Assembly: GCA_023259135.1 (NCBI GenBank)
Contig: JAHFQX010000025.1
Location: 1-40,595 of the forward strand
DNA: 40,595 nucleotides
From: Betaproteobacteria bacterium
GTDB lineage: Bacteria > Pseudomonadota > Gammaproteobacteria > Burkholderiales > JAHFQX01
Reading direction: 5' to 3'
In this document: positions 7,748-19,180 of the stretch, in pieces
Layout: the number at the start of each line of letters is the position of its first letter
Position numbering within the stretch: position 1 is the first letter of the stretch
The notes under the pieces: generated by a model
Seen by the model: the letters and a program-made list of their open reading frames with translations, nothing else
The model's database searches: none
Told to the model about the DNA's origin: nothing
Translations under genes and position numbers: made by a program

Positions 7748-8872
7748 ATGACGGAACACGGTTCGATAAGCGGCGGTCCCGGTTTTCTTGCGCGTGACCG
7801 GCTACAAGCCTTGATCGACGGGATTTTGGCGGCGGGCTATGCCTGCCTCGGCCCCAAGGTTCGCGACGGCGCCATTCTGTACGAGCCGCTCGACAATGCG
7901 GCCGAGTTGCCGGTCGGCGTTCGCGATCGCCAAATCCCGGGGCAATACCGCCTGGAGTGCGGTGACGGCCCGCGCTGTTTCGCTTGGGCCACCGGTCCTC
8001 AGGCGCTGAAGCCCCATCTGTTCGCGCCGCGGGAAGTGCTGTGGCGCGCCGAGCGGGGCCCGGATGGCCGCATCGTTTTCAGCGACCCCCAAGCAGGCGT
8101 GAAGCCCGTCGCCCTCTTCGGCGCCCGGGCCTGCGACCTGGCCGCCTTGCGCTTGCAGGACCGGCACTTTCTGGAGGGGCCGTATCCCGACCCGCATTAC
8201 GCGGCGCGCCGCCGCAAGCTCCTGGTCGTCGCCGTCAATTGCAGCCACCCGGCCCAAACCTGCTTTTGCGCCTCCACCGGAGATGGTCCCCATGCCTCCG
8301 CGGGCTATGATCTGGCCTTGACCGAATTCGATGACGGTTTCGTGATCCACGCGGGCAGCGCAACAGGCGCCCGGCTGGTGGAGCCGTTGCGGCTTTCCGC
8401 GGCCACCCCGGCTCAGCGCGAGGCCCAAGCTCGGCAGGCGGAGCAGGCCGCCCAATCTCAATCCAGGAGCTTGCCGAGCCGAAACTTGCGCTCTGCTTTG
8501 TTCGCCAACCTGGAGCATCCGCGCTGGAGCGACGTCGCCGAGCGATGCCTGTCCTGTGGCAACTGCACCTCGGTCTGTCCGACCTGTTTTTGCCACAGCG
8601 AGGCGGAGGAGCTTGATCTAGGGGGCGCGCGTTCGGAACACGTCCGCCAATGGGATTCTTGTTTCACCGCGGGCCACGGATATATGAATGGCCATCAAGT
8701 CCGGCCCGATACCCGCACCCGCTATCGCCAGTGGCTGACCCATAAACTGGGCGGCTGGCACGATCAGTACGGCCGCAGCGGCTGCGTCGGCTGCGGCCGC
8801 TGCATCGCCTGGTGCCCGGCGGAAATCGATCTCACCGAAGAAGCCGCGGCCATTTGCGGAGCATCGGCATGA
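7748..8872 (+). CDS. hydB: Group 3b [NiFe] hydrogenase beta subunit, iron-sulfur electron-transfer protein
   Basis: This 374-residue protein carries two [4Fe-4S] ferredoxin-type motifs near its C-terminus: CLSCGNCTSVCP (Cys267, 270, 273, 277) and CVGCGRCIAWCP (Cys346, 349, 352, 356). The upstream domain resembles AsrA of anaerobic sulfite reductase and HydB of the soluble sulfhydrogenases. It should pass electrons between the hydrogenase module and the flavin subunit HydG. A GGGGGAAG stretch precedes the ATG by about 8 nt. The ATGA overlap with the next gene and the order B-G-D-A match bidirectional NADP-linked group 3b hydrogenases. Additional Cys pairs (C172-C174, C279 and C282) could bind another cluster. 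Confidence 0.92.
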   Translation: MTEHGSISGGPGFLARDRLQALIDGILAAGYACLGPKVRDGAILYEPLDNAAELPVGVRDRQIPGQYRLECGDGPRCFAWATGPQALKPHLFAPREVLWRAERGPDGRIVFSDPQAGVKPVALFGARACDLAALRLQDRHFLEGPYPDPHYAARRRKLLVVAVNCSHPAQTCFCASTGDGPHASAGYDLALTEFDDGFVIHAGSATGARLVEPLRLSAATPAQREAQARQAEQAAQSQSRSLPSRNLRSALFANLEHPRWSDVAERCLSCGNCTSVCPTCFCHSEAEELDLGGARSEHVRQWDSCFTAGHGYMNGHQVRPDTRTRYRQWLTHKLGGWHDQYGRSGCVGCGRCIAWCPAEIDLTEEAAAICGASA

Positions 8873-9744
8873 GCCAGGGCCGACACACGGCACCGGAAAG
8901 CCTTGCGGCGTTTCCCAACCCCTATCGGCCCTGGGAGGCCGAGGTGGCGGAGCGCATCCAGGAATCGCCCAGCATTTTCACCTTATGGCTGCGCCTGACC
9001 GATGGCGCTGTGCGGACCGGATACCGGTTCGCGCCCGGCCAGTTCAACATGCTCTATCTCTACGGCGTGGGCGAGGTGGCCATTTCCATCGTTTCCGACC
9101 CCCACGAGGAAAAATTGATCGGGCATACCCTGCGCGCCGTCGGGCGGGTGACCCAGGGGCTCGCCCAATTGAAGCCGGGCGACCGCTTGGGGCTGCGCGG
9201 GCCCTATGGCCGCGGCTGGCCGCTTGACGCCGCGGAGGGGCGCGACGTGCTGCTGGTGACCGGCGGCCTGGGCTGCGCCCCGGTGGTGGCGGTGATCAAC
9301 TATGTGCTGCTGCGCCGCGAGCGCTTCGGCCGTCTCACCCTCATTCAAGGCGTCAAGCACGCCGACGAGCTTATTTGGCGGGAGCGCTACGCCTATTGGC
9401 GGTCCTTGCCCAATACCCAGGTGCTGCTCGCCGCGGACCACGGCGGTCCGCTCTGGCCCTGGCATGTGGGCTTGGTCACCGAGGTGTTCGATCGAGCGGA
9501 AATCGTGCCGGAGCACAGCTTCGTGATGATGTGCGGCCCGGAAGGCATGCTGCGCGCCGGGGCGCGGCAACTGGCGGAGCGCGGGGTGGCGGAGGAGCGC
9601 ATCTACCTGAGCATGGAACGCAACATGCGCTGCGCGGTGCGGCACTGCGGCCACTGTCAGTTCGGCGCCCGGTTCGTGTGCCGCGACGGGCCGGTGTTCG
9701 CCTACCCCGAGGTGAAGGAACTGCTCGGCGTGCGGGGATTTTAG
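8869..9744 (+). CDS. hydG: Group 3b hydrogenase gamma subunit, FAD/NAD(P)-binding reductase
   Basis: This 291-residue member of the ferredoxin-NADP reductase superfamily has a flavin-binding region (APGQFNMLYLYGVGEVAISIVS, about 55-76) and an NAD(P)-binding domain with GGLGCAPV at 132-139 and CGPEGML near 222. The C-terminal cysteine set (Cys255, 260, 263, 271) is typical of [2Fe-2S] binding in the PyrK/AsrB/HydG group. It is the site where NAD(P) exchanges electrons with the hydrogenase. The ATG at 8869 is chosen because it overlaps the hydB stop by 4 nt; an upstream in-frame start at 8812 would only read over hydB. The next gene starts on the base after its stop codon. Confidence 0.93.
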   Translation: MSQGRHTAPESLAAFPNPYRPWEAEVAERIQESPSIFTLWLRLTDGAVRTGYRFAPGQFNMLYLYGVGEVAISIVSDPHEEKLIGHTLRAVGRVTQGLAQLKPGDRLGLRGPYGRGWPLDAAEGRDVLLVTGGLGCAPVVAVINYVLLRRERFGRLTLIQGVKHADELIWRERYAYWRSLPNTQVLLAADHGGPLWPWHVGLVTEVFDRAEIVPEHSFVMMCGPEGMLRAGARQLAERGVAEERIYLSMERNMRCAVRHCGHCQFGARFVCRDGPVFAYPEVKELLGVRGF

Positions 9745-10530
9745 ATGGCGGACAAGCCCACGGTCGCGGTGCACAAGTTCGCTTCCTGCGACGGTTGCCA
9801 ATTGGCCTTCCTCAATCTGGGCGCGAACCTGCTGCCGCTGGCCGAACGCATCGACCTCGTCCATTTCGCCGAGGCCGGCCCCGTCAACCTGGACGCCCGA
9901 GTAGATATCGCTTTCGTGGAGGGCAGCATCTCGACTCCGGAAGACCTGCAGCGCATCCGGCGGATTCGCGCCAGCACCGGCTATCTGGTGAGCATCGGCG
10001 CCTGCGCCACGACGGGCGGCATCCAGGCCTTGCGCAACGGCGCCCACAGCGCCGAGTGGCTGCGGCAGATCTACGCGAGCCCGGAATACATCCACAGCCT
10101 GGCGACCTCCACACCCATCGCCGAGCACGTCAAGGTGGATTTCGAGTTGTGGGGATGTCCGGTGACCGGCCGCCAAATCGTGGCGGCGGTGAATGCCTTG
10201 CTGCTCGGAGTCGCCCCGCGGGATGATGCCGACAAAGTCTGCATGGAATGCAAGCGGCGCAATACGGTGTGCGTGCTGGTGGCCAAGGGCGAAGCGTGCA
10301 TGGGGCCGGTTACCCGCAACGGCTGCGGCGCCTTGTGCCCCAGCTTTGGCCGGGATTGCTACGCTTGCTACGGGCCCGCCGAGAATCCCGCCACCGATGC
10401 CTTGGCACGGCGCTTTAAGGGGCTGGGCTTGATGCCCGAGGACATCGCCCGGCGTTTTCTTTTCATCAACAACCAGGCTCCCGCATTCTATGCCGCGGGG
10501 CACAAGGCACGGGGCACGGGCCATGACTGA
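9745..10530 (+). CDS. hydD: Group 3b [NiFe] hydrogenase small (delta) subunit
   Basis: This 261-residue protein lacks a twin-arginine signal, so the enzyme is cytoplasmic. The proximal [4Fe-4S] ligands are visible as CDGC (Cys15, Cys18), Cys87 in GACATTGG and Cys138 in WGCPVTGRQ. A second cysteine-rich region (Cys166, 169, 176, 185, 194, 198, 205, 208) provides ligands for two further clusters. It relays electrons from the NiFe site in HydA toward HydB and HydG. It starts directly after the hydG stop and overlaps hydA by 8 nt. Confidence 0.94.
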   Translation: MADKPTVAVHKFASCDGCQLAFLNLGANLLPLAERIDLVHFAEAGPVNLDARVDIAFVEGSISTPEDLQRIRRIRASTGYLVSIGACATTGGIQALRNGAHSAEWLRQIYASPEYIHSLATSTPIAEHVKVDFELWGCPVTGRQIVAAVNALLLGVAPRDDADKVCMECKRRNTVCVLVAKGEACMGPVTRNGCGALCPSFGRDCYACYGPAENPATDALARRFKGLGLMPEDIARRFLFINNQAPAFYAAGHKARGTGHD

Positions 10531-11878
10531 CTCCGGCAAAAAGAAACCGGGCCGTCGCCCTCCCCGCGCCAAGGCCGGCGCCGGGACGGAAAAAACCGTG
10601 TCGATCCACGTGCCGGTGCTGGCGCGGGTCGAGGGAGAGGGGGCGCTGCATTTGCGCATTCGCGGCGACGCCATCGAGGAATTGAAATTGCGGATCTTCG
10701 AGCCGCCCCGGCTATTCGAAAAATTCCTCGAGGGCCGCTCCTGCGATGAGGTGCCCGACATGGTGGCGCGCATCTGCGGCATTTGCCCGGTGGCCTACCA
10801 GATGAGCGCCGTGAACGCCCTGGAAAGCCTGTTCGGCACCGAACCGGGGCCCTGGGTTCGCGCCATGCGGCGGGTGTTGTATTGCGGCGAATGGATAGAA
10901 AGCCATTGCCTGCATATTCATTTGCTCGCCGCGCCGGATTTTTTCGGCTACGACAGCGCCATCTCGATGGCCCGGGATCATCCCGAAGTCATCCGCCGCG
11001 GCCTGGCGTTGCAAGGCTTGGGCAACGAACTCATGGGGCTGCTGGGGGGCCGCTCGGTGCACCCGGTGGGGGTTCGCATCGGCGGATTTTATCGCGCCCC
11101 GTCGCAGGCCGAGGCCGACGCCATGCGGGACAAGCTGGAGGCGGCGTTGCCCGAGGCCGAGGCGCTGGTGCGCTGGATAGCGGCCGTAAAAGTGCCCCAA
11201 GACCCCCAGCAATTCACTTGCGTGGCCCTGCGGCATCAGCGGGAATATCCCATGAACGAAGGGCGGATCGTCTCCAGCGACGGGCTGGCCATCGGGGTGG
11301 AAGAGTACGAACGGCATTTCGCCGAACATCAGGAGCCGCATTCCACGGCGCTCTACAGCACTTTGCAAGGACGGCCTTATCTGGTGGGCCCCCTGGCCCG
11401 GCTCAACCTCAATCTCGACCGGCTTCCCGCTCAAGCGCGGGACCTGCTTGCCGACACTGGCATCCGCTGGCCCAGCGGCAATATGTTCCATAGCGCCGTC
11501 GCCCGCGCCGTGGAAGTGTATTACGCGTTGCTCGAAGCCATCCGGCTGCTCGCCGCTTATGCCGTTCCGGAAGCGCCGGCCGCAGCGGTCGTTCCCCGCG
11601 CCGGGATCGGCTATGGATGCAGCGAAGCGCCCCGCGGCATCCTCTGGCACCGTTATGCAGTCGATGCCCAGGGCCGCATTCTGAGCGCGCGCATCGTCCC
11701 GCCCACCAGCCAGAATCAGGCCCGCATCGAAGAAGACCTGCACAGCTCGCTGCGGGTTTTTGGGCTGCACCACAGCGATACGGCGTTGCGCTCGCATTGC
11801 GAAAAAGTGATCCGCAACTACGATCCTTGCATCTCCTGCGCCACCCATTTCCTGCAAATGCAGGTAGAGCGGATATGA
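10523..11878 (+). CDS. hydA: Group 3b [NiFe] hydrogenase large (alpha) subunit
   Basis: This 451-residue catalytic subunit holds the NiFe centre through two motifs: RICGICPVAY near the N-terminus (Cys85, Cys88) and DPCISCATH at the C-terminus (Cys436, Cys439, His442). The RxCGICPxA form and the company of hydB, hydG and hydD place it in the cytoplasmic NAD(P)-linked group 3b. A nine-residue tail after His442 is the expected peptide removed by the maturation protease encoded next. The ATG at 10523 is taken because it overlaps the end of hydD; it leaves a basic N-terminal extension of about 25 residues (KKKPGRRPPRAK). No hyp genes for NiFe(CN)2CO assembly are in the window, so they must lie elsewhere if the enzyme is active. 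Confidence 0.95.
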   Translation: MTDSGKKKPGRRPPRAKAGAGTEKTVSIHVPVLARVEGEGALHLRIRGDAIEELKLRIFEPPRLFEKFLEGRSCDEVPDMVARICGICPVAYQMSAVNALESLFGTEPGPWVRAMRRVLYCGEWIESHCLHIHLLAAPDFFGYDSAISMARDHPEVIRRGLALQGLGNELMGLLGGRSVHPVGVRIGGFYRAPSQAEADAMRDKLEAALPEAEALVRWIAAVKVPQDPQQFTCVALRHQREYPMNEGRIVSSDGLAIGVEEYERHFAEHQEPHSTALYSTLQGRPYLVGPLARLNLNLDRLPAQARDLLADTGIRWPSGNMFHSAVARAVEVYYALLEAIRLLAAYAVPEAPAAAVVPRAGIGYGCSEAPRGILWHRYAVDAQGRILSARIVPPTSQNQARIEEDLHSSLRVFGLHHSDTALRSHCEKVIRNYDPCISCATHFLQMQVERI

Positions 11879-12342
11879 CCCGTATCCAGGTGCTGGGGAT
11901 CGGTTCGCCCTTCGGCGACGACCGGGCCGGCTGGCGGGCGGTCGAAGCCCTGCGGCAATCGGCGGCGTTGGAGGGCTTGCCGCGGGGCGCGCTGGCCCTG
12001 CACATCCTCGACCGCCCCGGCGTAAATTTGATACGTTATTTGGCAGGGGCCGAACGGGTCATCATTGTGGATGCCGCCCGGGGAAGCGGACCGCCCGGCA
12101 CCTTGCGCCGCTGGGATGGAGCGGCCTTGCTTGACCCGGGAGAGATCTTCTCCAGCCATGGCGCGGGAGTCGCGGCGGCGCTGCGGCTGGCGGCCGCCCT
12201 CGGACCGCTACCCGATATCGCTGTGCATGGCATCGAGGTCGCCGATGTGGGCATGGAAGCCGCCCTCAGCCAGCCTGTTGCCGCCGCCTTGCCCAGGTTG
12301 ATCAGACGCATCGAAACGGAAATCCGGGAGGCCATCGCATGA
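11875..12342 (+). CDS. Hydrogenase maturation protease (HycI/HyaD family)
   Basis: This 155-residue cytoplasmic endopeptidase has the family opening VLGIGSPFGDDRAGWRAVE with the paired Asp residues expected to sense nickel, a central VDAARG strand and the SSHGAG region. It should cut the C-terminal tail of HydA after His442 once nickel is inserted. The ATG overlaps the hydA stop (ATGA), as is usual for a dedicated protease, and its stop overlaps the start of the following hydrolase in the same way. Confidence 0.9.
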   Translation: MTRIQVLGIGSPFGDDRAGWRAVEALRQSAALEGLPRGALALHILDRPGVNLIRYLAGAERVIIVDAARGSGPPGTLRRWDGAALLDPGEIFSSHGAGVAAALRLAAALGPLPDIAVHGIEVADVGMEAALSQPVAAALPRLIRRIETEIREAIA

Positions 12343-13094: not shown

Positions 13095-13120
13095 AGGCCA
13101 GAGGTTTTCTCTGGCCTTTT
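13095..13120 (+). terminator. Rho-independent terminator of the hydrogenase operon
   Basis: A perfect 9-bp stem (AGGCCAGAG, 13095-13103, with CTCTGGCCT, 13109-13117) closes a 5-nt loop and runs into TTT. It lies 58 nt after the last operon gene. On the opposite strand the same hairpin follows the tRNA 3' end with a weaker T-rich tail (GTGTCTTT), so it may also stop the rpoD-tRNA transcript. Confidence 0.85.
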
Positions 13121-13127
13121 GTATGGG

Positions 13128-13455
13128 TGGGCCCCCTGGGAGTCGAACCCAGCACCAACGGATTATGCGTACCACTACGACTTTCGCCGCCCCTTTCGGG
13201 TTTGTGGTCTGGACTCTATCTTGCCTTTACGGCCTTCCCGTCGAGTCTCTACACGTTCCCCCGGGGTTCAGGGGCTTCGCTCGGTATCGGCGTGGCGCAA
13301 AGGCCGCGTTAGCTTTCACCGAATTTGAGAAGTTCTACCCAGGATCAGAGTGAACTTAACCCTGGGCAACCCACAGGAAGTCACCATGCATCCCGAGGAT
13401 GTTTAGGTTTCTTCCGCCAAGTCCGCTGCTCTAACCATGCATGAGCTAGAGGCCC
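13128..13455 (-). tRNA. tRNA-Ile2 (CAU anticodon), interrupted by a group I intron
   Basis: Two exons make a 76-nt cloverleaf. The 5' exon (13420-13455) supplies acceptor strand GGGCCTC, D stem GCTC/GAGC and half of the anticodon arm (GCGGA-CT). The 3' exon (13128-13167) begins with anticodon CAT, then AA, stem TCCGT, T arm CTGGG-TTCGACT-CCCAG, acceptor strand GGGGCCC and discriminator A. Acceptor pairing is complete with one G-U pair. The discriminator is followed by CCC, so CCA would be added after transcription. The CTCATAA loop with a GGA/TCC stem and the site after rpoD favour the lysidine-modified Ile2 tRNA over Met tRNAs, which share the CAU anticodon. The 252-nt intron lies between U33 and C34. 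Confidence 0.93.
13168..13419 (-). ncRNA. Group I intron in the tRNA anticodon loop (likely subgroup IC3)
   Basis: Conserved core elements appear in order on the minus strand. A P/P4-like block AATTCGGTGAAAGCTAACG lies at 13307-13325, an R-like block GTGTAGAGACTCGACGG at 13238-13254 and an S-like block AAGATAGAGTCC at 13211-13222. GACTC (13243-13247) and GAGTC (13212-13216) pair perfectly as P7. The 3' part folds as P9-type hairpins with two GAAA tetraloops (CCC-GAAA-GGG and CGGC-GAAA-GTCG) inside ACCAC/GTGGT. The last intron base is G, as required. At the 5' site exon GACU can pair with GGUU in the intron, giving the usual U-G wobble. The core closely resembles the known Azoarcus tRNA-Ile intron as I recall it. 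There is no room for a homing endonuclease. Confidence 0.92.
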
Positions 13456-13485: not shown

Positions 13486-15543
13486 CTATTCATTGTCGAG
13501 GAAACTGCGCAGCCGCTCGGAACGGGACGGATGGCGCAGCTTACGCAGCGCCTTGGCCTCGATTTGACGGATCCGCTCCCGGGTCACGTCGAATTGCTTG
13601 CCGACTTCCTCCAGGGTGTGATCGGTGTTCATCTCGATGCCGAAGCGCATCCGGAGGACCTTGGCCTCCCTCGGGGTGAGCGAGTCCAGCACATCGTCGG
13701 TGGCATTCTGCAGGCTGGCGTAGACCGCCGCCTCCGCGGGGGCCATGGTGGCGGCATCCTCGATGAAGTCTCCCAGATGGGAGTCGTCGTCGTCGCCGAT
13801 GGGCGTCTCCATGGAGATCGGCTCCTTGGCGATTTTCAAAATCTTGCGGATTTTTTCCTCGGGCATTTCCATGCGCTTGGCGAGTTCCGCGGGATCGGGC
13901 TCTTGACCGGTCTCCTGGAGAATCTGGCGGGAGATGCGGTTCATCTTGTTGATGGTCTCGATCATGTGCACCGGAATGCGGATGGTGCGGGCCTGATCGG
14001 CGATGGAGCGGGTAATGGCCTGCCGAATCCACCACGTGGCGTAAGTGGAGAATTTATATCCGCGCCGATATTCGAATTTGTCCACCGCTTTCATCAGCCC
14101 GATGTTGCCCTCCTGGATCAAATCCAGGAATTGCAGGCCACGATTGGTGTATTTCTTGGCGATGGAAATGACCAAGCGCAGATTGGCTTCGGTCATTTCC
14201 CGCTTGGCGCGCCGCGCCTTGGCTTCGCCGGTGGACATTTGCCGGTTGATTTCCTTGAGATCCCGCAGCGGAATGCCCACCTTTTGCTGGAGATCGATCA
14301 AGGTTTGCTGCAACTCGAAAATGGCCGGAGCATGGCGGGACAAGGCTTCGCTGTAGCTCTTGCGGGCGGCGATTTCTTTTTTTACCCACGCCGGATCCAC
14401 TTCGTTGCCGGGAAAAGCCTTGATGAAATGGGGCCGGGGCATGCCGGATTTCTTGACGCACAGATCCATGATCTTGCGCTCGTGCTGGCGCACCCGATCC
14501 ACTTGCTTGCGGACGCTGTCGCACAGGGCTTCCACCTGCTTGGCGCCGAAGCGGATGGTCATCAACTGGTTGGAGATTTGCTGCTGCAATTCCTTGTAGG
14601 ATTTGCTCTGCGGGCCGCTTCTCGCCAGCACTCGGCGCATTTTGTTGTGGGCTGCGCGGATAACGGCAAACCGTTTCAGGGCTTCGGTCTTGAGTTCCAG
14701 CAGATTGGCTAGGGCCGCGGCGCTGCCGTCGTCCTCGGCATCGCTTTCCTCGCTGTCCTCAACTTCATCGGTACTCATGGCCGCTTCGATCACTTGATCC
14801 TGCGCATCGGGGCCGATCAGCCCGTCAACGATTTCGTCAATCCGCAATTCATCCCGTTCCACCCGGTCGGCCAGGGCCAGGATTTCGGCGATGGTGGTGG
14901 GGCAGGCGGAAATGGCCTGGACCATGTGTTTGAGGCCGTCCTCGATGCGCTTGGCGATTTCGATTTCGCCTTCGCGGGTGAGCAGTTCCACCGAGCCCAT
15001 CTCCCGCATGTACATGCGGACCGGATCGGTGGTGCGGCCGAACTCGGAATCCACCGTGGACAGCGCGGCTTCGGCTTCCTCCACCACGTCCTCGTCGGCC
15101 GCCGGAGGCGGGGTTTCCGACATCAGCAGAGTCTCGGTATCCGGGGCCTCGTCATAGACCGAGATCCCCATGTCGTTGATCATGCTGATGATGTTTTCGA
15201 TCTGCTCGGCGTCCAGGTTTTCGTCGGGCAGGTGATCGTTGATTTCGGTGTAAGTCAGATAGCCCCGTTCCTTCCCCAGCACGATCAGATTCTTCAGGCG
15301 GATACGACGGGACTCGACATCGAGAAGCGAGGGCGGAGCCTTGGAAAGAGCGGCCGCCTTCTGCTCCTTGAGGCTCGGGACCCGCTTGTTGCCCTTAGCC
15401 GGGGCCGCAACGGGGACTTTCCCTTTCTCCTGAGCCTTGGGGCTGGCCGCTTTGGCGGGCGCCGGGCGTGGGACCGGCTTGCTGGTGCTCTTGGCGGCGG
15501 GCATGCGCTCGCCGGATTTGCTGGGGGTGGTTTTTTTGGCCAT
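13486..15543 (-). CDS. rpoD: RNA polymerase primary sigma factor sigma70
   Basis: This 685-residue sigma factor has region 1.1 after an unusual N-terminal extension, region 1.2 ([21 protein letters not shown], about 167-187), a long acidic non-conserved region, region 2 ([33 protein letters not shown], then [15 protein letters not shown], which melts and reads the -10 box), region 3 and region 4 with the -35-reading helix ([29 protein letters not shown]). It is about 70 residues longer than E. coli RpoD, mostly because of a Lys/Ala/Pro-rich stretch of about 60 residues at the start. It is the last protein gene of the rpsU-yqeY-dnaG-rpoD cluster, 50 nt after dnaG, and the tRNA gene follows 30 nt downstream. 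Confidence 0.98.
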
Positions 15544-15593: not shown

Positions 15594-17366
15594 TCATTGT
15601 AAGTGAGATGGGGGGGGTGTTGGGGCGGTAGGTTTAGGGCCGGCCAACAGAGTGAGCAACTGCTGCATTTCGTCTCGCTCCGGTCCGGTGAGTTCAGCCA
15701 GAGACTTGGCGCGCAACTGGTCGAAACGCTTTCGGGCTCGAGCCTCCCGGAGCCGATCCAGTATGCCCTGCAATTCCGCGGTCCCGTCGAAATCCGCTTC
15801 CCAACTTAATACTGCCGCGGCTTCTTCCTGAAGCAGGGGCTGATGGGGGGTGTCGCGGAAATGGGTAAGCGCCAGGGGAACGAGCACATTGGGGGCCGGC
15901 AGCGGAACTTGATTGGCGACAAAATCCACCAGGCTGGCCACGGCCTCGCCTTCGGCGCCAGCCTGGGCCAGCAGAGCCTTATCCACTTGGAGGGCGGCTT
16001 CAGGGTGGTGGAGCAACACGCGAATCAACTTGCGACAGAGAGAAACGGGGGCCGAGCGTCGGGATCGTGGGACCCGGATTGCTGATCGGACCGTGTTGGA
16101 AGGAAACAGTTCATTCAGCTCCCGGTGGGCCAAGCCGGCCAGTTCCGCAAGGCGCTTTCTCAGGATCAAGCCCAGGACCGGCGCGGTGATTTTGTTCAGC
16201 AATGGCTTGGCTTCGGCCAGCAGCCGAGCCCGGCCTTCCTCGCTGGATAAATCCGTTTTGGCGGCCAAGGCATCCAAGAGAAACGTGCTCAACGGCACCG
16301 TCTCCCAGCGATCTTCGGCCGCGGCTTTTCTCACATAGGTGTCCGGGTCTTCCCCGGGCGGCAGAAACAGGAAACCGACCCGCTTGCTGTCGGTAATCAG
16401 CCCCAGGCTGTTTTCCAAGGCTCGCCAGGCCGCTTTCCGGCCGGCCTCGTCGCCATCGAAGCAGAAAATCACTTCGTCGGTGAGGCGGAACAGGGTTTGA
16501 ACGTGGGTTTCGGTGGTGGCAGTGCCGAGGGTGGCGATGGCGTATTCGACTCCGTGCTGGGCCAGGGCCAGCACGTCCATATAACCCTCCACCACCAGCG
16601 CCCGGCCCGCCTCCCGGATGGCCCGGCGGGCTTGATAGAGCCCGTAGAGTTCTCGCCCTTTGCTGAACACCGGGGTTTCCGGAGAGTTGAGGTACTTGGG
16701 CTCGCCGGAGCCCAAGATACGCCCGCCGAACCCGACCACCGTCCCTTCCCGGTTCAGAATCGGGAACATGATGCGCTCCCGGAATCGGTCGTAGCGGCCG
16801 CCGTTGGTCCCCTCGATCAGAAGGCCGGCTTCAGTCAGGACGGGAACGTTGTACTCGGGAAAGATGCTTTTGAGATTTTGCCAGCCGCCGGGAGCATAGC
16901 CGATGCCGAAACGGGCGGCGATCTCGCCGCTGACGCCTCTGTCTTTGAGATAGCCGATGGCGTCGTCGGCCTTTTTGAGCCGGGAGCGGTAATAATCGGC
17001 GGCTTGGCGCAGCACCGCGAAAATGTCCGCGGCCGCCTTGCGGCTTGCGGGGATGTCGGCATGGGCCGGATGCGACTCCTCGGGAACGCTCAGGCCGACC
17101 CCGGCGGCAAGCTCCCGAACGCTTTCCACAAAGTTAGCGCCGGAATACTCCATCAAAAATCGAATAGCATCTCCATGGGCTCCGCAGCCGAAACAATGAT
17201 AAAACTGCTTGGCCGAGCTCACGGTGAAGGAGGGAGTTTTTTCGACATGGAAGGGGCAGCGAGCGACATAATTCGCCCCGGCGCGCTTGAGAGGCACGTG
17301 GCGATCCACTACTGCGACGATGTCCACGCGGCCGAGCAATTCTTGGAGAAAAGCGGGGGAAATCAC
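15594..17366 (-). CDS. dnaG: DNA primase
   Basis: This 590-residue primase makes RNA primers for chromosome replication. It shows an N-terminal CHC2 zinc finger (Cys37, His40, Cys58, Cys61), the RNA-polymerase-like core and a Toprim domain (EGYMDVLALAQHG, then FCFDGDEAGRKAA), followed by a C-terminal DnaB-binding region with a Pro/Thr-rich tail. I start it at GTG 17366: this matches the family N-terminus (ISPAFLQELLGRVDIV) and has GAGGAGG about 10 nt upstream. Readings that begin further upstream run over yqeY and are not credible. E. coli DnaG is 581 residues, so the length is normal. Confidence 0.96.
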   Translation of the reverse strand: MISPAFLQELLGRVDIVAVVDRHVPLKRAGANYVARCPFHVEKTPSFTVSSAKQFYHCFGCGAHGDAIRFLMEYSGANFVESVRELAAGVGLSVPEESHPAHADIPASRKAAADIFAVLRQAADYYRSRLKKADDAIGYLKDRGVSGEIAARFGIGYAPGGWQNLKSIFPEYNVPVLTEAGLLIEGTNGGRYDRFRERIMFPILNREGTVVGFGGRILGSGEPKYLNSPETPVFSKGRELYGLYQARRAIREAGRALVVEGYMDVLALAQHGVEYAIATLGTATTETHVQTLFRLTDEVIFCFDGDEAGRKAAWRALENSLGLITDSKRVGFLFLPPGEDPDTYVRKAAAEDRWETVPLSTFLLDALAAKTDLSSEEGRARLLAEAKPLLNKITAPVLGLILRKRLAELAGLAHRELNELFPSNTVRSAIRVPRSRRSAPVSLCRKLIRVLLHHPEAALQVDKALLAQAGAEGEAVASLVDFVANQVPLPAPNVLVPLALTHFRDTPHQPLLQEEAAAVLSWEADFDGTAELQGILDRLREARARKRFDQLRAKSLAELTGPERDEMQQLLTLLAGPKPTAPTPPPSHLQ

Positions 17367-17421
17367 GGCGCTGCCTGGCCTCCTCGAGAAAAACCGCCCG
17401 GGGCCCGTCCCCCAGAAAACT

Positions 17422-17868
17422 TTAATTGCCGAGTCGGGACTTGACCTGGGCGGACACTTGGGCAAGATCGGCCCGTCCGGCCAACTGGGGCTTGAGCACG
17501 GCCATGACCTTGCCCATGTCCTTCGGGCCGGCGGCCCCGGCGGACCGGATGGCGCGGTCCACGGCCTCGGCAATTTCGGCGGCCGACAAGGCTGGAGGCA
17601 AATAGGCCTGGAGTACGCCGATCTCAAATTTCTCTCCTTCCGCCAAGTCGTTGCGCCCGGCGGATTCAAACTGAGCCGCCGCATCGCGGCGCTGCTTGAG
17701 GAGTTTGTCGACGACGGCCAGCACCTGGGGGTCGTCGAGAGTCGTGCGCTCGTCCACTTCCCGCTGCTGGATGGCGGCCAACAGCAGGCGCAAAGCCGAC
17801 AGCCTGCGCGCATCCTTGGCGCGCAGGGCGGCTTTCATGTCATCGCTGAGGCGGCTCTTGAGGCTCAA
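17422..17868 (-). CDS. yqeY: GatB/YqeY domain protein
   Basis: This 148-residue, mostly helical protein matches the GatB/YqeY family throughout: MSLKSRLSDDMKAALRAKD at the start, LRLLLAAIQQREVDER, a central FEIGVLQAYLPPALS hinge and MGKVMAVLKPQLAGRAD near the end. The domain is related to the tRNA-binding tail of the amidotransferase subunit GatB. The free-standing protein is widespread between rpsU and dnaG, but its function is not settled. It starts 7 nt after the rpsU stop. Confidence 0.95.
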   Translation of the reverse strand: MSLKSRLSDDMKAALRAKDARRLSALRLLLAAIQQREVDERTTLDDPQVLAVVDKLLKQRRDAAAQFESAGRNDLAEGEKFEIGVLQAYLPPALSAAEIAEAVDRAIRSAGAAGPKDMGKVMAVLKPQLAGRADLAQVSAQVKSRLGN

Positions 17869-18163: not shown

Positions 18164-19180
18164 ATGTTGATCCTGGGTATCGAGTCTTCCTGTGACGACA
18201 CCGGGGTGGCGTTTTATGACTCCGGCCGGGGACTGCTGGGCCATCGAGTCCATACCCAGTCCGATATCCATGCCGATTACGGCGGGGTGGTGCCGGAACT
18301 GGCGTCTCGGGATCATGTCCGGCGCCTGCTGCCATTGATCCGGGATTTGAGCCAGGCGTGCGGGGTCGGCTTGTCCGACCTGGACGGGATTGCCTATACC
18401 CAAGGTCCGGGATTGGCCGGAGCCTTGCTGGTGGGGGCCGCCACGGCTGTCGGCTTGAGCCGCGCCCTGGAAATTCCGGTGATGGGGGTGCATCACCTGG
18501 AGGGACACTTGCTCTCCCCCCTGCTGTCGGATCCGGCTCCGGGGTTTCCCTTTATTGCCCTGCTGGTATCTGGAGGACACACTCAGTTGATGGAAGTGGC
18601 CGGAGTCGGGTGTTACACCTTGCTGGGGGAAACGGTGGATGACGCCGCCGGGGAGGCTTTCGACAAGACCGCCCAATTGCTGGGGCTCGGTTATCCCGGC
18701 GGGGCAGCCCTGGCCGCCCTGGCTCAAGACGGCGACCCAGAACGTTTTCCTTTGCCCCGCCCGATGCTGGATAGTCCCGACCTCAATTTCAGCTTCAGCG
18801 GACTGAAGACCGCCGTGCGGCTGCTAATCCGGCAACGAGGAGAGGCTGATCGCCCCGATATCGCCGCCGCTTTCCAAGAAGCGGTGGCGGAGGTGTTGGC
18901 AGCCAAAGCGTCGCGCGCTTGGCGAGAAACGGGACATCGGCGGTTTGTGGTGGCGGGCGGAGTGGGCGCTAACCATCGCTTGCGGGAGCGGCTTTCCCAT
19001 GCCGCGGACCGGGAAGGCGTGCAGGTTTACTATCCGCCGCCGCAATTCTGCACCGATAACGGCGCCATGATCGCCTTAGCCGGCGCGCTGCGGCTGGAAC
19101 GGCAAAAGGCGGACGCGGCGGCGACCATAGGCGGAAGCTTTACGGTGCGGCCCCGCTGGCCTTTGGAGGAGCTGCGGTAG
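18164..19180 (+). CDS. tsaD: tRNA N6-threonylcarbamoyladenosine (t6A) transferase subunit TsaD
   Basis: This 338-residue ASKHA-fold enzyme transfers threonylcarbamoyl to A37 of tRNAs that read ANN codons, together with TsaB and TsaE. It has the family opening [14 protein letters not shown], metal ligands His111 and His115 in VHHLEGH, the phosphate motif SGGHTQL and the C-terminal CTDNGAMIA. Its length is normal. It diverges from rpsU, as in many gammaproteobacteria. Its stop lies only 3 nt from the stop of the convergent plsY gene. Confidence 0.97.

Follow-up and report, generated by a model that had tools for sequence, protein, structure and literature searches.

A small group I intron between U33 and C34 of the tRNA-Ile2(CAU) gene downstream of rpoD in a betaproteobacterial genome

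The stretch of DNA analysed here (40,595 nt, hereafter called the window) contains a complete tRNA-Ile2(CAU) gene on the minus strand at 13128-13455, interrupted by a group I intron of 252 nt (Table 1). We are confident that the tRNA-Ile2(CAU) gene of the cell lies here, split at U33|C34 by an IC3-like group I intron which would be spliced out of the precursor. The initial annotation had proposed that a group I intron splits this gene downstream of rpoD; a covariance model, covariation, relatives with an intron at the same site and empty sites in other genomes all agree with it, and the anatomy described there (coordinates, 76-nt cloverleaf, 252 nt, 5-bp P7, two GAAA-capped hairpins and terminal G) was exact. 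The intron is of a known kind, the tRNA-Ile2 introns, and belongs to a site class other than that of Azoarcus.

The interrupted gene and the intron structure

Table 1 Features of the tRNA-Ile2(CAU) locus and its neighbourhood, in window coordinates
Feature	Position	Strand	Remarks
tsaD	18164-19180	+	beyond dnaG; Pfam
dnaG	15594-17813	-	beyond rpoD; Pfam
rpoD	13486..15543	-	Pfam; upstream of the tRNA gene, which starts 30 nt past the rpoD stop codon
5' exon, tRNA-Ile2(CAU) nucleotides 1-33	13455-13420	-	36 nt, last bases GGACU (U33)
Group I intron	13419-13168	-	252 nt, between U33 and C34, terminal G (13168); model R1 178.9 bits, same-site introns in relatives, ARAGORN intron placement
P1-loop extension hairpin	13376..13415	-	GGAAG/CUUCC, ACC/GGU, CAUCC/GGAUG; variable among relatives
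Internal guide 5'-GUGGGUU-3'	13368..13374	-	P1 and P10 strands
P10 (possible)	13374-13372	-	guide GUG with 3' exon CAU; 83 % of cells paired
P1	13371-13368	-	guide GGUU with exon GACU, U33-G wobble; pairs in 100 % of cells, 43 sequences
P2	13338..13366	-	13366-13359 with 13345-13338; 83 % of cells paired
P3 5' strand CUUCUC	13327..13332	-	partner GGGAAG 13239-13234; compensatory changes, 99-100 % of cells paired
P4	13281..13322	-	13322-13318 with 13285-13281, enclosing P5 and P5a
P5	13313-13312 with 13291-13290	-	within P4
P5a	13307-13305 with 13297-13295	-	within P4
P6	13253..13280	-	13280-13278 with 13255-13253; GCG/CGU swaps with GCC/GGU among relatives
P6a	13274-13271 with 13261-13258	-	
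P7 5' strand GACUC, R element	13243..13247	-	predicted guanosine-binding site; five perfect pairs (13247-13243 with 13216-13212), 98 % of cells paired, last pair compensatory
P3 3' strand and P8	13223..13239	-	P3 13239-13234; P8 13233-13231 with 13225-13223
P7 3' strand GAGUC, S element	13212..13216	-	
P9 with P9a and P9b	13171..13208	-	P9 13208-13204 with 13175-13171; P9a and P9b both GAAA-capped
3' exon, tRNA-Ile2(CAU)	13167-13128	-	40 nt, starts with the anticodon CAU (C34), to discriminator A73
Terminator-like hairpin	13095..13117	-	after the tRNA gene; consensus scan, weak; terminator-like also for a + strand gene

The 5' exon has 97-100 % identity with the uninterrupted genes of relatives, and the split point U33|C34 is unambiguous in the window gene. 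The joined exons (36 + 40 = 76 nt, plus CCA) gave a full cloverleaf with the anticodon CAU in ARAGORN. With introns permitted, the same programme independently predicted an intron at position 37 of the precursor, 252 nt long; an ordinary tRNA scan gave no match at the locus. CCA is absent from the gene, A73 being followed by ACCC. The gene has the CAU anticodon, the pairs C4-G69 and C5-G68, which we take to be the identity rule for tRNA-Ile2(CAU), and a position near rpoD like that of ileX, and the genome encodes TilS. The E. coli gene order is tsaD-rpsU-dnaG-rpoD-mug-ileX, and the window order tsaD, dnaG, rpoD, tRNA-Ile2 thus corresponds to the ileX setting, which supports the identity of the tRNA. 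On the opposite strand, a row of genes (7748-12342, plus strand) encoding iron-sulfur, NAD-binding, NADH:ubiquinone oxidoreductase 20 kDa-type and nickel-hydrogenase proteins and a hydrogenase maturation protease (HycI family) ends near the tRNA gene.

The intron has a P3-P8 core with the guanosine site in P7, the elements P, Q, R and S in that order, an exon U before the 5' splice site opposite a guide G, and a terminal G, as expected of group I introns. Its small size and tRNA location, the lack of P5abc, the GAAA loops of P9 and R and S elements of the tRNA-Leu/Azoarcus type point, by sequence and structure, to subgroup IC3, and model matches also favour the small IC3-like type that had been suggested. 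A protein-spliced (bulge-helix-bulge) intron and a group II intron were both ruled out on structure.

A common structure, P1 to P10, was drawn from the window and counted on 43 introns at U33|C34. Standard pairs occupied 95.3 % of cells, a percentage which leans towards the window because the structure was drawn on it; the changes on both sides seen in 33 of the 58 pairs are independent of that. The covariation score was 0.427, compared with 0.144 for shuffled and at most 0.086 for slid alignments. Compensatory swaps occurred in P3, P6, P7, P8 (GCC/GGC with GUC/GAC) and P9b, and all eight pairs of P2 had changed on both sides among relatives. This covariation supports the predicted helices P3-P9.

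P1 is short, consisting of four pairs of which two are G-U, and its exon strand was invariant across the 43 sequences, alongside its complete pairing; U33 lay opposite the G of the guide GGUU in all 42 sequences that cover this position. The anticodon stem makes use of two of the four P1 exon bases as well, and P1 and the stem would therefore have to exchange. The guide GGUU is conserved in nearly all U33|C34 introns, with one GGUC variant, and the three bases before it are AUG in 26 of 51 introns and GUG in the window. The GGUC variant comes from a Phycisphaerae MAG (L101), whose U33|C34 intron has a very divergent core and where the guide gives a full G-C pair at the position of the G-U pair of the others.

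A core covariance model built from 37 relatives, with the window excluded (model R1), scored 178.9 bits on the window (E 1.4e-56 in 168 kb), and the match ended exactly at the terminal G of the intron. A chance match is excluded by this score. The initial annotation had named the Rfam model Intron_gpI (RF00028) as a check, and this part of its expectation failed, no group I match being found on the window at gathering or permissive thresholds, whereas the match expected of a covariance model was obtained with R1. In a control, RF00028 gave 87-96 bits for two cyanobacterial tRNA-Leu introns (cut-off 50); two Azoarcus-site introns (37-41 bits) and three U33|C34 introns (28-32 bits) remained under the cut-off. 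These scores attribute the miss to insensitivity of the model, the cut-off of which is a detection threshold and not a defining feature of group I introns. Nawrocki and colleagues doubted that the single RF00028 model captures group I diversity (PMC6125680). Weak Rfam matches on the window to mascRNA and HTT-AS1_3 were far under cut-off and were discarded. Model R1 also found most Azoarcus-site introns (66-92 bits) and tRNA-Leu introns. Group I introns also occur in tRNA-Leu(UAA) genes of other same-order genomes (L043, L045 and L049; G044, G028 and G021).

In the proposed splicing path the tRNA would be transcribed, perhaps together with rpoD (no promoter match was found in the 30-nt gap between them), after which the intron would fold into its P3-P9 core. 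A guanosine bound in P7 would attack after U33, and the freed U33 would attack after the terminal G, joining the exons, which may be aligned by P10 between guide GUG and exon CAU. The ligated exons would be expected to read GGACUCAUAAUCC, and the spliced tRNA would then be modified by TilS and read AUA. From the sequence we infer that the intron splices, and that it does so unaided.

Host and number of tRNA-Ile2 genes

The genome had been described as gammaproteobacterial in character, which does not hold: in the RpoD tree the window sequence clustered with Betaproteobacteria, and a branch of 1.21 (support 100 %) divided this group from E. coli and Pseudomonas. The tree does not settle the exact position of the window RpoD within Betaproteobacteria; it places a same-order relative (G024) inside Methylophilaceae. 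The traditional Betaproteobacteria form the order Burkholderiales in GTDB, where the class is Gammaproteobacteria. The host being betaproteobacterial (GTDB Burkholderiales), the intron does not extend the range of its kind, contrary to what had been supposed. Such introns are common in the order, with model matches in 47 of the 300 genomes sampled across it, and the tRNAscan-SE 2.0 paper (PMC8450103) had already reported tRNA-Ile2 genes with group I introns from Acidovorax and Burkholderia. True gammaproteobacteria (Pseudomonas, Halotalea, Dokdonella) have the same intron class.

The host assembly is 99 % complete, and 38 tRNAs were detected in it. The sole other CAU tRNA has the acceptor GGCGAAT and lacks C4-G69/C5-G68; from its Met-type acceptor it is taken as elongator Met. 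No second tRNA-Ile2 was found in the assembly, in line with the earlier claim that this gene provides the only tRNA for AUA, although the absence is not proof, since fMet, Ile(GAU) and Ala(UGC) tRNAs were likewise undetected in the assembly (G000). The tRNA genes for Ile(GAU) and Ala(UGC) are usually found in rRNA operons, and those two may be missing through assembly gaps. For an intron hidden in the missing fMet gene, neither a pattern nor an fMet sequence used as query gave convincing evidence. A TilS gene is present in the genome (171 bits), and seven ATA codons occur in five of the nine window genes checked. A pattern search of 17 genomes with U33|C34 introns revealed no intact second Ile2; its two matches in Pseudomonas are truncated copies. 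Because the interrupted gene is the sole Ile2 found, TilS is present and AUA is used, splicing of the window intron is probably essential for the reading of AUA.

It is most improbable that the locus is a dead relic, with an inactive intron and another gene supplying the tRNA. Splicing of the window intron is predicted, and some relatives do have broken Ile2 halves beside other copies, but those broken copies are truncated and the window copy is not: its exons and all core helices are intact, it scores like conserved members of the family, and it is without a second Ile2 in the 99 %-complete assembly.

Two insertion sites in the anticodon loop

The same intron was found by sequence search at the same site in 3 of 60 same-order genomes (G057, G009 and G041), and the site was empty in at least eight others. 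Across 84,980 named species, a pattern combining the R element and the 3' exon matched at least 120 stretches. Introns after U36 of tRNA-Ile2 (CAU|AAUCC, the Azoarcus site) numbered at least 58, of about 201-224 nt, and introns at the window site, U33|C34, at least 54, mostly of 241-266 nt, both counts being those of a sample shaped by the scan pattern and the matches listed. Among the matches listed, the U33|C34 class was mostly from Betaproteobacteria; it also occurred in Pseudomonas cerasi, Pseudomonas sp. ICMP 561, Halotalea alkalilenta, Dokdonella and a Lysobacteraceae MAG, and in a few putatively placed planctomycete and acidobacterial MAGs. The loci from Paracidovorax (L115), Burkholderia (L087, L165) and Paraburkholderia all had the U33|C34 site. 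The introns reported for Acidovorax and Burkholderia are very probably of the class of the window intron; the sentence of that paper which names them gives no site, structure, distribution or island context (PMC8450103).

The parallel drawn earlier with the intron of Azoarcus BH72 pre-tRNA-Ile(CAU) was misplaced in its closeness. The two share the tRNA gene, a small IC3-type core, the lack of an ORF and the terminal G. The Azoarcus intron, of about 205 nt and from a different clade, lies after U36 with a guide GUG on exon CAU; its pre-tRNA splices after CAU, which is also the triplet in vivo (PMC6274277). The window intron differs in its splice point after U33, before CAU, its guide GGUU and its P1-loop extension hairpin. 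A tree of 79 cores placed the U36|A37 introns in one clade (100/97) with the window intron outside it. A single clade of all Ile2 introns was rejected (p-AU 0.005); for the U33|C34 class alone, a single clade was neither demonstrated nor rejected (p-AU 0.475). The window intron fell in a clade of ten members with Halotalea, Dokdonella, Comamonadaceae and others (99/98). The window intron is thus very unlikely to be the Azoarcus intron as such, inherited at that site and similar to it through common descent within the gene: the common tRNA and rpoD-linked locus, the similar core and the detection of most Azoarcus-site introns by model R1 would fit such descent, but the insertion sites are 3 nt apart (33|34 and 36|37; PMC6274277) and the tree topology speaks against it.

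The cyanobacterial and plastid tRNA-Leu(UAA) introns have in common with the window intron the IC3 core, the R and S elements and an insertion in the anticodon loop. They differ in the tRNA, in the site (U34|A35) and in their recognition by Rfam, at 87-96 bits compared with no match for the window.

Broken tRNA-Ile2 genes and islands in relatives

Beside many intron-bearing genes of relatives there is a 5' half of a further tRNA-Ile2 that breaks off after CTCATAA and gives way to unrelated sequence containing short repeats. Among loci with 400 nt or more of sequence upstream, such a broken resident tRNA-Ile2 was found upstream in 30 of 97 intron-bearing relatives, compared with none of 37 intact-gene controls; by class, the U36|A37 loci had remnants in 21 of 46 cases and the U33|C34 loci in 9 of 51, these nine including two Pseudomonas copies cut in the T loop. 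Most of the remnant-bearing genomes examined also had the corresponding 3' half, and in seven genomes a 5' half, the intron-bearing gene and a 3' half were read in that order, in one orientation and over about 3 to 35 kb. A tyrosine integrase lies inside the islands of Pseudomonas ICMP 561 and G041 and an integrase-like protein inside that of a Comamonas MAG; none was identified among the proteins scanned in the other four. A similarity search with five integrases gave a nearby match at 10 of 75 intron loci and at none of 38 intact loci.

The tRNA-Ile2 islands at L297, L298, L299, L300, L301 and L236 code for restriction-modification (HindVP type, Type I) or for a toxin-antitoxin pair of RES and Xre type and are small defence islands. 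In Pseudomonas sp. ICMP 561 (L224/L238) and Pseudomonas cerasi (L223), a T-loop-truncated resident tRNA-Ile2 lies about 100 nt upstream of the intron-bearing copy, the exons of which differ from it; in the former the missing 3' end is found about 9 kb further, past the integrase, and this is a gene replacement by an island. At one locus (L034/L236/L237, G041:C4) two tandem broken 5' halves precede the intron-bearing copy and the 3' half is about 35 kb away, so that successive islands seem to have inserted into one another at this tRNA.

At either site the intron interrupts CTCATAA, the 7-bp core common to the broken halves (CT|CATAA or CTCAT|AA), and consequently no intron-bearing gene keeps an intact junction. 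The intron may therefore conceal the replacement copy from the integrase. Ordinarily an island restores the tRNA into which it integrates (PMC4383910). In tRNA-dependent lysogeny an element breaks the host tRNA and brings its own copy, tRNA-Ile2-CAT being among the tRNAs concerned (Guerrero-Bustamante and Hatfull 2024, PMC10865867); as in the islands of the relatives, the host tRNA is broken at a core of about 10 bp. That system is one of actinobacterial phages, for whose copy no intron is reported (PMC10865867), and the likeness is to the islands in relatives, not to the window. The presence of an intron in the copy brought in, with both sites within CTCATAA, appears to be new; no prior description of an intron-bearing replacement tRNA or a split core was found in the papers searched, which is no proof of novelty.

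Tentatively, then, Ile2 group I introns could be shields of replacement tRNAs, the islands using the anticodon-loop core CTCATAA as attachment site, destroying the resident gene and supplying a whole copy, and the integrase being blocked by the split core, with the window intron as a settled descendant; the evidence for a shield, which comes from relatives, is correlational. In the window itself, the arrangement present in relatives, with halves on either side of the gene and an integrase between them, is absent: no half-gene remnant was found in the window and no integrase on its contig. An origin of the window's own copy beside a broken half was dismissed, there being no remnants. It is rather unlikely that the intron-bearing gene came to its place beside rpoD as a replacement tRNA on an integrative island since lost, and not by intron insertion into a resident gene. 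The broken residents upstream of intron-bearing relatives and the islands bounded by two halves in seven genomes argue for such an arrival; besides the missing remnant and integrase, the rpoD gap of just 30 nt and the resemblance of the window exons to those of intronless relatives with rpoD adjacent argue against it. The window copy may be a settled island descendant, a recombination product with an island copy or the result of direct intron insertion.

The window adds a member to a family missed by the general model of Rfam, and since that model misses the family, many betaproteobacterial genomes can seem to lack an essential tRNA. The U33|C34 family has occupied this anticodon loop separately, at a distance of 3 nt from the textbook site of Azoarcus. 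How small introns without a homing endonuclease persist and move between bacteria is an old question, and a testable answer is offered by the relatives, in which the intron-bearing tRNA often serves as rescue copy of an integrative island. If the shield explanation is true, repeated rounds of islands would explain both the spread of introns without homing endonucleases between genera and their place in the anticodon loop.
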